Assembly: GCF_007860125.1 (NCBI RefSeq)
Contig: NZ_SJPW01000005.1
Coordinates: 1-64,000, forward strand
Reading direction: 5' to 3'
From: Rubripirellula tenax
Lineage (GTDB): Bacteria; Planctomycetota; Planctomycetia; Pirellulales; Pirellulaceae
DNA: 64,000 nucleotides
The position numbers were made by a program, and so were the translations under genes. Positions within the stretch are counted from its first letter, which is position 1; each line of letters starts with the position of its first letter. The notes below the pieces were generated by a model, which was not told where the DNA came from, ran no database searches, and saw only the letters and a list, made by a program, of their open reading frames with translations. Positions 20,080 to 37,367 of this stretch are shown here, one piece after another.

Positions 20080-20175
20080 AGCCTGTTGAAAAAGGGGGCT
20101 GACCCTCTCCGACGTTTCGAATTCACAATGTTTCAGCAACGTCTCCAAAGGGTCAGACCCCTTTTTCAACAGGCT
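20080..20175. repeat. 96-bp MITE-like palindromic element, copy 1
   Basis: The element is bounded by terminal inverted repeats AGCCTGTTGAAAAAGG and CCTTTTTCAACAGGCT. The interior again has inverted GGTC-type segments. An inverted copy with few differences is at 37266-37360. The ends and size fit a small non-autonomous palindromic repeat. The long stem could also act as a terminator after the ankyrin gene. Confidence 0.8.
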
Positions 20176-34314: not shown

Positions 34315-34511
34315 CGTCGGTGACAGATTCAATTCGTCGTTAGATTGGCGTGTGAAGACCCGATCATATCGAACGAGACCGGATTCTTGGAATGCGTCTG
34401 ATATTTGTTGCTAATAATGCGTGTCAGAATTGGACACTGAGCTGGTAGAATTGGTACCGGCGTTCGACTGCCGTCGATGTTGATCCTTTGACCCGCGCCC
34501 GAGATGCCCCC

Positions 34512-35342
34512 ATGAAGAACGTGAACTGCATCGCCGTTGCTGCATGGCTGCTATGCGTTGCCATCGCAGCGGATTTCATCGTTGTGAACCCGGTCAACGC
34601 CCAGGTTTCGAGTGCCGCGGGTCCGAGTGCAGTGAAGGCGGATGAAACTCCGACTCCGCTGCCGATCGAAACCTACGTTGCCGAAATTGCCAATGGTGCT
34701 CGCGTAACGACGATGATCAAGTCGGGCACGTGGATGCGCGTGGTCGAGCACCGAAACGGAATCGAAACGCAAACCAAAAATGACGCTGGTGAGGTCAATC
34801 GTCTGTTTTTCAAGACTCTCGACGAGGCCGCGGCGGTGAACCCTGAAAGCATCGCTGCGTTCCAATGGGTGCAAAGCGAAGGACTAAACCGATTCGGACC
34901 GTCGGGCTTCGGTTCCTTGACGCGAAATTCGGGATCTGGGTCGAGTCGTTTCGGACCGAGTAACTTTGGCGATTGGGGCCCAGATTCGCGTGGATTCGGG
35001 TCGAGTGGATTCGGACCGCGCCGTTTCGGGCCACAAGGTTTCGGTGCAAGCAATTTCGGCGGAAACGGATTCGGGCCGCAAGCCTTTGGGCCGGGGCAAG
35101 TTCCAGATATTCGTTCGCCCGATGTGATGGATATTCCGAATCCGATCCGTGGCGGTCGTGACATGACGCTGGAACCCATCGACGCGCAATCGATTCTCGG
35201 GGGAATGCAAGATTCGATGATGAAGGGAATCGGTGAAATGGATGCAAAGCGAAAGAAGTCGGAAGACGATATGGACGCGAGAAGCGAAGCAATGAAGCGG
35301 CAGATGGACTCGCTGAAGAATCGAGTACGCCGATCATTCTAG
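34512..35342 (+). CDS. Exported protein with FGP/GFG low-complexity repeats
   Basis: The 276-residue product has a signal peptide ending near VNAQ (about residue 31). A small N-terminal domain (about 35-125) contains ETYVAEIANGARVTTMIKSG. Residues about 127-194 are a repetitive stretch of FGP, GFG and NFG units (NRFGPSGFG, SRFGPSNFG, GFGPRRFGPQGFG, GFGPQAFGPG). A charged helical C-terminus (KKSEDDMDARSEAMKRQMDS) follows, likely a coiled coil. I do not know the family. It is 66 bases upstream of the Dop-like gene and may be co-transcribed with it. ATG 34512 is preferred to 34488 for the signal peptide. Confidence 0.7.
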   Translation: MKNVNCIAVAAWLLCVAIAADFIVVNPVNAQVSSAAGPSAVKADETPTPLPIETYVAEIANGARVTTMIKSGTWMRVVEHRNGIETQTKNDAGEVNRLFFKTLDEAAAVNPESIAAFQWVQSEGLNRFGPSGFGSLTRNSGSGSSRFGPSNFGDWGPDSRGFGSSGFGPRRFGPQGFGASNFGGNGFGPQAFGPGQVPDIRSPDVMDIPNPIRGGRDMTLEPIDAQSILGGMQDSMMKGIGEMDAKRKKSEDDMDARSEAMKRQMDSLKNRVRRSF

Positions 35343-35408: not shown

Positions 35409-37244
35409 TTGGAACGTCACCCTGCATTCCCGGAAAATCTCTTGTCGTCTGAGTCCCCTTCACCCGATCACTCGGCCGATCACCAGCAAGCGCCGTCGCC
35501 CCAGGCAAATGGAGCCCGGGCGAATGGTGCCGATCCCGCGGTTGCGCGATCAAGGTTCGCGCGAACAACGCCGTTGGTCACACGGCTTGTGGGGCTGGAA
35601 ACCGAATACGCGACGCTGGTCGCGGACCGGCAAAACATAGACGTCGAAGATCTGCCGCCGTCCCAATTGGTGTACTCGCAAATCTGTGAAGCGATTCGCC
35701 GCGACCAACCCACCGTGACTGGGTTGTTCGATAGCGAACAGATGTTTCTTGCCAGCGGCGGCGCCGTCACGTTCGAGTCGCACCCGTCGATGCACGCGTT
35801 GCCCGGCGGATTGGTCGAGATTGCGACTCCGGAAGTCCAGAGTCCCGCCGACCTATTGGCCTGTCAACGATCGATCGACCAACTGGCAAGCGATGCCACC
35901 GCGGACTCGGAAACAAGCTTCGATCTTCGCATCTTAAAGAACAGCAGCGATGCGCTGGGGCACGTGTACGGTTGCCACGAAAATTATGAGGCACAGGTCG
36001 CGACCGGGCTTGGGCTGTTGGTCTATCGCTTGTTCGTTCTTCTGCTTTGGGTCATGCAAGCGATCAGTTTGGTGGTTGCCATGCCGTTGATGGCGATCAC
36101 GTTGGCGACGGTCAACGTGTCGAGAATCAGAAAACGCCACGAGCTTCCGACGACTGAGATTGAACCGCAAGACATCTTCGAGCTCGTTCCGACTTGGATG
36201 TCGAGCTTGTTGATTGCATCCCTTCGCTTGGTGCACTTGCCGACGGTTTTGATGCTTCGCTTCGTCGCCCGCCATGTCGCGTTTCGGGTCCAGCGACGGT
36301 ACTTAGCGGCTCTGTTGGTTTCGCGAGTTTCACTTTGCGGAACCGGCAACTTGGATCCCGAAAATCGATTTCAATTGAGTGCCAAAGCGATGGCGATCGA
36401 TTCCGTTGCCGACATGGGCGGTTTCCGTGGCGAACGCCCCATTTTTGTCTACGGCCACTGGCTGGGGCAGTTCTGTGCGAAATCGTTTCTGTCGCTGGGT
36501 TCAACACGGCAAATGTTGCGTCAGCGCCAACGGCTGCAGATCGGGCTGTCGGATTCGAATATGTCGGACTTGGCCGAGTACGTCAAAGTCGGATCCGTCT
36601 CGTTGGTTTTGGACATGTTGGAATCGGGTCACACCGAAGGCTTGCCGATTCTTAAGAAGCCGATCGATTCGCTGCACCGGATCGCCAACGATTGGAATCT
36701 GGTTTCACGCGTTCCGACCCATCGCGGCGATATGTCGGCGCTTGAAATTCAAAAAGAGTTTTTGCTGGCGGCAGAGTCTTTCGTCGAATCGACTCCCGCC
36801 AACATGCGCGGCGAGGCACCGTTGGTGGTTTACCGTTGGCGCGAGTTGTTGGATTCGGTGTTGGCCTTTCGTCGCGAGTTTTCGGACGTCGACATGGCGC
36901 TCGGTCGGGTCGATTGGATGACCAAGCGATGGTTGATCGCTCAACTGGGTGATGAAATCGAATGGACGGCACGCAAAAAGATCGACCTCCGCTACCACGA
37001 ACTGTCCGAAGACGGCTACTACATCCAATTCTTGAAGTCACGGCCTGATCTGCGTTTGGTGGACGACGAAAGTATCGCCCGCCGGCGACGATCACCGCCG
37101 GCAAGTTCGCCGGCGGCAAGACGCGGGTGGCTGATCCGCGAATTCGCCAACAGCGACGAACTGCTGCAAAGCGAATGGACCTACGCGATGATCGGCCGAG
37201 GTCGACGACGACGAAGGATCGAGTTCGTCGATACGCCACGGTAA
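35409..37244 (+). CDS. Dop/PafA-like protein (depupylase/Pup-ligase fold) with membrane insertion
   Basis: The 611-residue protein keeps the landmarks of the Pup ligase/deamidase fold. GLETEYATL (62-70) matches the metal-binding GTEVEYG motif. LPGGLVEIATPE (131-142) matches the HPEYSAPE region, LKNSSDALGHVYGCHENY (176-193) matches NNVDGKGASYGSHENY, and SDSNMSDLAEYVKVGS with LVLDMLE (381-405) matches GDANLAETSTYLKLGT. Between the last two lie two hydrophobic segments (about 200-235 and 262-285) absent from actinobacterial Dop, implying membrane association. The N-terminal 50 residues are Pro/Ala-rich. The start is TTG at 35409 (no ATG in frame; TTG 35442 is an alternative). No Pup, UBact or proteasome gene is adjacent. 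Confidence 0.82.
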   Translation: MERHPAFPENLLSSESPSPDHSADHQQAPSPQANGARANGADPAVARSRFARTTPLVTRLVGLETEYATLVADRQNIDVEDLPPSQLVYSQICEAIRRDQPTVTGLFDSEQMFLASGGAVTFESHPSMHALPGGLVEIATPEVQSPADLLACQRSIDQLASDATADSETSFDLRILKNSSDALGHVYGCHENYEAQVATGLGLLVYRLFVLLLWVMQAISLVVAMPLMAITLATVNVSRIRKRHELPTTEIEPQDIFELVPTWMSSLLIASLRLVHLPTVLMLRFVARHVAFRVQRRYLAALLVSRVSLCGTGNLDPENRFQLSAKAMAIDSVADMGGFRGERPIFVYGHWLGQFCAKSFLSLGSTRQMLRQRQRLQIGLSDSNMSDLAEYVKVGSVSLVLDMLESGHTEGLPILKKPIDSLHRIANDWNLVSRVPTHRGDMSALEIQKEFLLAAESFVESTPANMRGEAPLVVYRWRELLDSVLAFRREFSDVDMALGRVDWMTKRWLIAQLGDEIEWTARKKIDLRYHELSEDGYYIQFLKSRPDLRLVDDESIARRRRSPPASSPAARRGWLIREFANSDELLQSEWTYAMIGRGRRRRRIEFVDTPR

Positions 37245-37265
37245 TCGCCATGTCGATCACTTAGC

Positions 37266-37360
37266 AGCCTGTTGAAAAAGGAGTCTGAACCTTTGGAGAC
37301 GTTGCTGAAACATTGTGAATTCGAAACGTCGGAGAGGGTCAGACTCCTTTTTCAACAGGC
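37266..37360. repeat. MITE-like palindromic element, copy 2 (inverted)
   Basis: This is the reverse complement of the element at 20080-20175 with a handful of changes, including terminal AGCCTGTTGAAAAAGG. The two copies face each other across 17 kb. It lies 21 bases after the Dop-like gene. Confidence 0.8.
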
Positions 37361-37367
37361 AGCTAGC

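Follow-up and report, generated by a model that had tools for sequence, protein, structure and literature searches.

We propose that the ligase-family gene described here belongs to a one-enzyme, membrane-anchored and probably non-degradative conjugation pathway, in which the modifier gene was separated from the ligase gene once; we put the probability of this reading at roughly 0.7. The window, i.e., the whole stretch of 64,000 nucleotides from Rubripirellula tenax that was analyzed, carries the ligase gene, and the candidate modifier gene lies on another contig of the same genome. The features of the ligase gene, all on the forward strand, are as follows:

35409..37244, +, membrane-inserted Pup-ligase-family protein (PF03136), 611 amino acids when read from the TTG at 35409; assigned by family profile and predicted fold
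35592..35609, +, GhExE motif GLETEY, residues 62–67; E64 and E66 are the counterparts of Dop Glu8 and Glu10
35775..35777, +, Glu123, where PafA (D64) and Dop (D94) have their catalytic Asp; placed by profile alignment to 4b0t
35817..35834, +, EIATPE, residues 137–142; E137 aligns with Dop Glu99
35967..35987, +, YGCHENY, residues 187–193; H190 is the counterpart of Dop His155
36009..36137, +, first inserted hydrophobic helix, residues 201–243, a predicted membrane anchor (AlphaFold2 helix and hydropathy)
36192..36278, +, second inserted helix, residues 262–290, less hydrophobic and predicted to be membrane-associated (AlphaFold2 helix and hydropathy)
36525..36560, +, RQRLQIGLSDSN, residues 373–384; Q377 is at the place of Dop His241
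36990..37007, +, RYHELS, residues 528–533, in the C-terminal half; kept in active-type rows and largely lost in degenerate copies

The open reading frame (ORF) at 35409–37244 matched the Pup_ligase family PF03136 with E=2.5e-70 and 238.1 bits (gathering score 25). The alignment covered ORF residues 59–592 and profile positions 1–439 of 441, indicating a full-length family member. The ORF scored 125.1 bits with the PafA equivalog model TIGR03686 (cut-off 551.3) and 117 bits with the Dop equivalog model TIGR03688 (cut-off 492.3); both scores are far under the cut-offs, and the protein is therefore neither PafA nor Dop. It was the sole PF03136 member found in its own genome (7.99 Mb, 99.91% complete). 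As conservation among relatives begins at approximately residue 55 and an alternative in-frame TTG occurs at 35574, the start is uncertain, and residues 1–55 may or may not be translated. The N-terminal extension was also considered as a fused modifier; this was rejected, as the extension is variable and does not resemble one. The locus of the ligase varies within the genus: it follows ribH (named by eye) in 11 loci and lies beside alaS (named by a family model) in 5, the window among them. A secreted-looking protein (judged by eye) with GFGP repeats and no Pfam match directly precedes the ligase at 34488–35342; of the 28 loci compared, L048 alone has it as well.

The first-pass annotation had recognized landmarks of the Pup ligase/deamidase fold in GLETEY, YGCHENY and RQRLQIGLSDSN, and these are present at the residues listed above. 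An AlphaFold2 model of the ligase, built from an input alignment of 24 rows, had a mean pLDDT of 88.3 and a pTM of 0.89 (model numbering + 55 gives ORF numbering), and a second structure model, of an outer relative, had a pLDDT of 91.2. In Foldseek searches, Dop 4b0r ranked first (E 9.3e-24; TM 0.66 for the query and 0.79 for the target), followed by PafA 4bjr (E 2.8e-22) and then by YbdK-type proteins; the Dop/PafA fold is thus predicted from the structure model as well. With PafA (PDB 4b0t, 4bjr), the protein shares the fold, the GhExE and HEN motifs and the short segment before strand 2; unlike PafA, it has a membrane insert, Glu in place of Asp64 and a partner modifier that is undetected by the Pfam Pup model.

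We mapped the ligase residues to Dop and PafA by profile alignment to the PDB sequences (4b0t for PafA), taking the Dop metal ligands, among them Glu8 and Glu10, and the catalytic D94 as named in PMC8599861. Residues E64, E66 and E137 are Glu in all 24 active-type rows of the ligase alignment, window included. Position 123 is likewise Glu in 24 of 24 rows; in a set of 80 loci (the best 80 of 111 relatives found, from genomes that overlap in part with the genomes numbered with G), the residue is Glu in 77 and Asp in 1, and the remaining 2 have a gap. Position 190 is more variable (H in 14, Q in 9 and K in 1 of the 24 rows), and position 377 is Q in 23 and E in 1; the Dop metal ligand His241 is thus replaced. 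At this place, [QH] is given for the Pup-ligase family in Iyer 2008 (PMC2588565). The metal and catalytic residues pointed to in the first-pass annotation therefore fared differently: the first-strand glutamates and the equivalent of Dop Glu99 are kept, whereas the catalytic aspartate is glutamate. Judged by the alignment, the predicted ATP/metal site is largely conserved, and the exchange of Asp for Glu at position 123 and of His241 for Gln counts against a precise assignment of its reaction.

Dop (PDB 4b0r, 5lrt, 7oxv) is the closest system by profile and Foldseek score, the family profile scoring Dop over PafA (1e-60 vs. 1e-48). The enzyme could thus be a Dop-like depupylase or amidase, with conjugation being performed by an unrelated enzyme. 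However, a depupylase that is the only PF03136 protein of its genome would have nothing to remove. By manual count, 57 residues separate E66 from the catalytic position E123, compared with 46 in PafA and 84 in Dop; this intermediate length may fit poorly with a full-length Dop-loop (40–65 residues according to PMC8599861), and planctomycete paralogues are described in PMC7947786 as aligning in part with the Dop-loop. The modifier described below already ends in Glu, and therefore deamidation is unneeded. We consider a purely Dop-like enzyme unlikely. For the preferred pathway, the single family enzyme in the genome and the modifier ending in Glu lead us to infer that the enzyme at least conjugates.

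The two hydrophobic segments reported in the first-pass annotation were recovered as the predicted helices at residues 201–243 and 262–290. Their Kyte–Doolittle maxima were 2.3 for the first and 1.6 for the second, which is weakly hydrophobic, and the two-helix insert sits after the HEN motif. An insert of 106–149 residues, with a 19-residue hydropathy maximum of 1.72–3.24, was present in 78 of the 80 relatives, the other two being the halves of one split gene; therefore, the insert is not a chance feature. The membrane-anchored conjugation step suggested in the first-pass annotation is plausible. In Iyer 2008 (PMC2588565), membrane-inserted Pup ligases of Rhodopirellula and Plesiocystis are described without proteasome linkage, with an insertion of four transmembrane segments and a proposed anchoring to the cytoplasmic face. 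The present protein agrees with that description in family, in an insertion after core strand 4, in the lack of proteasome linkage and in having relatives with a Pup-like neighbor ending in G[EQ]; membrane-associated protein modification was already proposed there. It differs from it in that the models show two long helices instead of four transmembrane segments, and in that the modifier is unlinked in a whole clade instead of encoded by an adjacent Pup gene. The glutamate at the place of the catalytic aspartate and the decayed ligases in genomes where no modifier was found go beyond the accessible text of that study.

The membrane location also bears on a further alternative, namely that the acceptor of the modifier's C-terminal glutamate is a small amine or a lipid headgroup and not a protein, which would yield a membrane-tethered peptide. 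The superfamily includes small-molecule ligases, as the YbdK match illustrates, and the acceptor site may have a different shape with Glu where Dop and PafA have Asp. However, the C-terminal part common to PafA and Dop is kept (profile 1–439 of 441), and a lipid or amine acceptor is without direct support; we regard this possibility as very unlikely compared with conjugation to proteins.

No Pup gene was visible to the first-pass annotation, and within the clade of the window no Pup-like ORF was found next to the ligase, either by C-terminus or by profile; neither the Pfam Pup model nor the UBact NCBIfam model gave a match over its cut-off in the own genome. In 8 loci belonging to other genera, the ligase is directly preceded by a short ORF with GE at its end. 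A first modifier profile was made from these 8 ORFs (57 positions, no sequence from the window's genus) and run against 60 whole genomes. In the own genome, it matched G000:C1:1379010-1379102 with E=2.7e-5 over model positions 27–57 of 57. The corresponding ORF, G000:C1:1378923-1379102, has 60 residues and ends in HDGE; it lies on contig C1, and the ligase lies on contig C5 of the same genome. Another 14 same-genus matches reached the last model position with E values of 5.7e-7 to 1.2, the weakest of which would not stand alone, and all 15 same-genus ORFs end in DGE. An extended profile gave E 7.2e-21 in the own genome, a value that is partly circular because this profile contains same-genus sequences. 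It also matched G004, of the same genus (3.5e-14), and G034 (2.8e-11), neither of which is in the profile, and both ORFs end in DGE. Over the last 28 codons of the 15 same-genus modifiers, mean pN was 0.29 and mean pS was 0.76; pN was lower than pS in all 105 pairs (which are not independent of one another), indicating that the frame is under protein-level constraint. The absence of Pup therefore holds for the surroundings of the ligase and for the Pfam Pup model genome-wide, whereas an unlinked Pup-like gene is present on another contig.

The GE terminus is invariant in the 54 rows of the modifier family alignment. Neither Pfam Pup PF05639 nor UBact NF033388 matched any of the 54 members at E<=0.1, matches to other families were scattered, single and weak, and a PDB search with the modifier profile returned no Pup chain at E<=10. 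The term Pup-like therefore rests on size, the GE ending and partnership: the modifier is short, has a C-terminal G-[E/Q] and is the partner of a Pup-ligase-family enzyme. UBact of gram-negative bacteria is also a small modifier ending in GE. Unlike the modifiers described here, it is defined by a model that matched none of the 54 and found nothing over cut-off in the own genome. The link to UBact drawn in the first-pass annotation was not supported. The neighbors of the unlinked modifier are a HisA-like ORF, rpsL, rpsG and fusA (all named by eye) and a 789-amino-acid protein without a Pfam match; these surrounding genes gave no clue to function.

In the 80-locus set, a modifier-family ORF lies upstream of the ligase in 56 loci (E 5e-16 to 0.03), and all 56 end in GE. 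The distance from the end of this ORF to the GhExE motif was 25–209 bases in the 44 loci measured, and the other 12 were judged by coordinates. An upstream modifier is lacking in 23 of the 80, which comprise 21 loci, with the frame broken in L140 and only ~400 bases available upstream in L122, and the two halves of the split gene; L169 is truncated by the end of its contig. The loci without a linked modifier include those of Rubripirellula, Stieleria, Roseiconus and some Rhodopirellula. In a tree of 51 ligases (midpoint root, bootstrap not fully settled), the 25 unlinked rows form one branch with a support of 99/98; therefore, one separation suffices. We suppose that the genes would have been separated in the ancestor of the clade with these genera; elsewhere, they are adjacent. 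Across 149 Pirellulaceae genomes, the modifier was linked in 50 genomes and only unlinked in 27; 26 of these 27 belong to the genera g1, g14, g56, g57 and g70, and the other, G024, is a contig-edge case. The neighbors of three same-genus modifier loci, searched for in 8 further loci, had counterparts in just one, L211, of the window's genus; the remaining 7 belong to other unlinked genera and yielded either the modifier alone or no match. The modifier's genomic place is not common to the unlinked genera.

As the ORF precedes the ligase in 56 of the 80 loci, it might also be taken for a leader peptide, or for a chaperone serving the ligase, that is not itself conjugated. However, in the unlinked clade the ORF is retained at a great distance from the ligase, its C-terminus unchanged, and a leader would need no fixed terminal glutamate, whereas the GE end is invariant in 54 rows. 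These observations leave little probability for a leader or chaperone, and we retain the reading of the ORF as the modifier. In G027, G101 and G123 (loci L035 and L036), which belong to one genus, two ligases and two linked modifiers each are present; the pathway is duplicated in these genomes.

Co-distribution was assessed in the 149 Pirellulaceae genomes, all with >=90% completeness, at a modifier threshold of E<=0.001. The ligase family and the modifier occurred together in 77 genomes, the ligase family alone in 5, the modifier alone in none and neither in 67 (Fisher p 6e-37, phylogeny ignored; the modifier profiles contain sequences from some of the counted genomes). The modifier match reached the last model position in 76 of the 77, and that of G024 was cut by a contig end. 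The 82 ligase genomes were counted by family, and at least that of G128 has no evident insert. The five ligase-only genomes are of different kinds. In G092, an adjacent ORF ends in GE (E 0.0066 among few loci and 0.29 genome-wide), and in G153 and G171, ORFs ending in DGE narrowly miss the threshold (E 1.2e-3 and 1.1e-3, respectively); the family protein of G128, judged by eye, has no evident insert, and G015 has a degenerate ligase. In the set of 60 relatives, which overlaps the 149, the ligase family was found in 28 genomes, the modifier (E<1e-4) in 25 and both in 24. The ligase alone was found in four genomes: G006, G009 and G015, where it is decayed, and G013 (91% complete), where it is intact and no modifier was found, which counts against the pairing. 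G001 (86% complete, 1030 contigs) has a modifier and no ligase match, the sole modifier-only case in this set. The ligase and the modifier are largely kept and lost together.

In the decayed ligases of G006, G009 and G015, E66 is replaced by W and E137 by K in all three, the frames are open and other motifs are lost. The profile search found no modifier match reaching the C-terminus in these genomes (G009 being only 66% complete). Decay of the ligase where no modifier was found would be expected if the role of the ligase is to handle the modifier. The decayed copies occupy the place of 8 other same-genus ligases, after rho and ribH (read by eye). In the midpoint-rooted tree, the three degenerate rows lie on a long branch outside the same-genus ligases, a position that suggests to us long-branch displacement; the neighborhood suggests, against the tree position, that they are the same gene as the same-genus ligases. 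As the three genomes are related, the decay may be a single event.

The lack of visible proteasome genes stated in the first-pass annotation was confirmed: none occur near the ligase, and the proteasome family PF00227 gave no match at E<=1 in the own genome. For Mpa/ARC, nothing was over the cut-off in the own genome (best 153 vs. 504.75 bits). Unlike the Pup–proteasome system, therefore, the present one comes without detected 20S proteasome subunits or Mpa/ARC in its own genome, and the modification is probably regulatory or handled by another protease. Proteasome-independent pupylation is described for Corynebacterium glutamicum ferritin in PMC8223512.

Other carriers differ in this respect. 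A search of 40 genomes found a PF00227 protein (E ~1e-20), possibly HslV, in G022 and G024, both of which carry the ligase and the modifier; the absence of PF00227 therefore applies to the window's genome but does not extend to every carrier. Within the genus, 5 of 22 genomes, the own genome not among them, have a weak, distant PF00227 relative (E 3e-3 to 4e-9); examples are L218, L219 and L220 (in G021, G002 and G018). No NCBIfam proteasome model was over its cut-off in the two of these weak relatives that were scanned, and we take them to be possibly Anbu-like. As a pathway partner, the weak PF00227 protein was rejected because it occurs in only 5 of 22 same-genus genomes and the own genome is not one of them.

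These proteases bear on a degradative pathway, in which the modified proteins would be degraded by a membrane protease, e.g., FtsH, or by the PF00227 protease in some relatives. The matches of AAA cores to the Mpa model that reach 153 bits (cut-off 504.75) may be FtsH-type proteins, and the PF00227 protein of the carriers G022 and G024 would fit as well. However, the own genome has neither a PF00227 match nor an Mpa over the cut-off, and no protease was noticed beside the ligase or the modifier in the loci read, in an unsystematic look. Degradation is the strongest of the alternatives considered here, and we still regard it as improbable; the non-degradative pathway is preferred.

In the pathway that we propose, a glutamine-synthetase-like catalytic domain would lie on the cytoplasmic face of the membrane, anchored by the two-helix hydrophobic insertion after the HEN strand. 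This domain would act on the modifier, a small and probably disordered protein of ~60 residues with HDGE at its end. On the model of PafA, the terminal glutamate of the modifier would be phosphorylated on its side chain by ATP, and the phosphorylated intermediate would then be attacked by a lysine on a protein located at the membrane or close to it. The same ligase might also reverse the conjugation. Membrane proteins may be the targets, which is a natural guess and was already made in 2008. A bolder version, which we offer only tentatively, is a distinct membrane-anchored, proteasome-independent conjugation pathway with its own modifier family, in which a single enzyme would add and remove the tag using Glu in place of Asp; it would occur widely among Pirellulaceae and also in some myxobacteria, and would regulate membrane proteins rather than destroy proteins.

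In the literature on PafA and pupylation in planctomycetes, we recognized no experimental follow-up of the membrane form of 2008. The unlinked modifier, the Asp-to-Glu change and the decayed ligases were not mentioned in the literature covered, which was mostly without subscription papers and Additional file 1 of Iyer 2008. The membrane form was already known as a prediction, and these three points are apparent additions. Few examples of non-degradative pupylation exist. A modifier found where it was seemingly absent, together with the joint retention and loss of the two genes, makes the 2008 proposal testable in cultured Rubripirellula, Stieleria and Rhodopirellula, and the Glu123 family is a natural experiment on the catalytic aspartate. 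Caution is called for where no Pup is seen next to a ligase, as it can be encoded by a short gene at a distant site.

A second PF03136 type without an evident insert was observed in 4 of the 149 Pirellulaceae genomes, as tandem pairs in G030, G080 and G119 and as a single gene in G128. The corresponding loci are L054 (5907–13180 of G030:C75), L202 and L203 (tandem) and L201 (single). The pair in L054 has an AAA ATPase (PF00004, 3e-14) as a neighbor, together with a Prok-JAB match that is weak and under the cut-off (7.2e-4), and possibly belongs to a different system, either ubiquitin-like or Pup-like.

In the window, a palindromic element with 31-nucleotide arms that are 94% complementary occurs at 37262–37365, just downstream of the ligase. 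A related copy was found at 20084–20171 with a 19-nucleotide probe (1–2 mismatches), and none of 100 shuffled sequences was matched. The two palindromes represent a repeat family of small size that may be a miniature mobile element.
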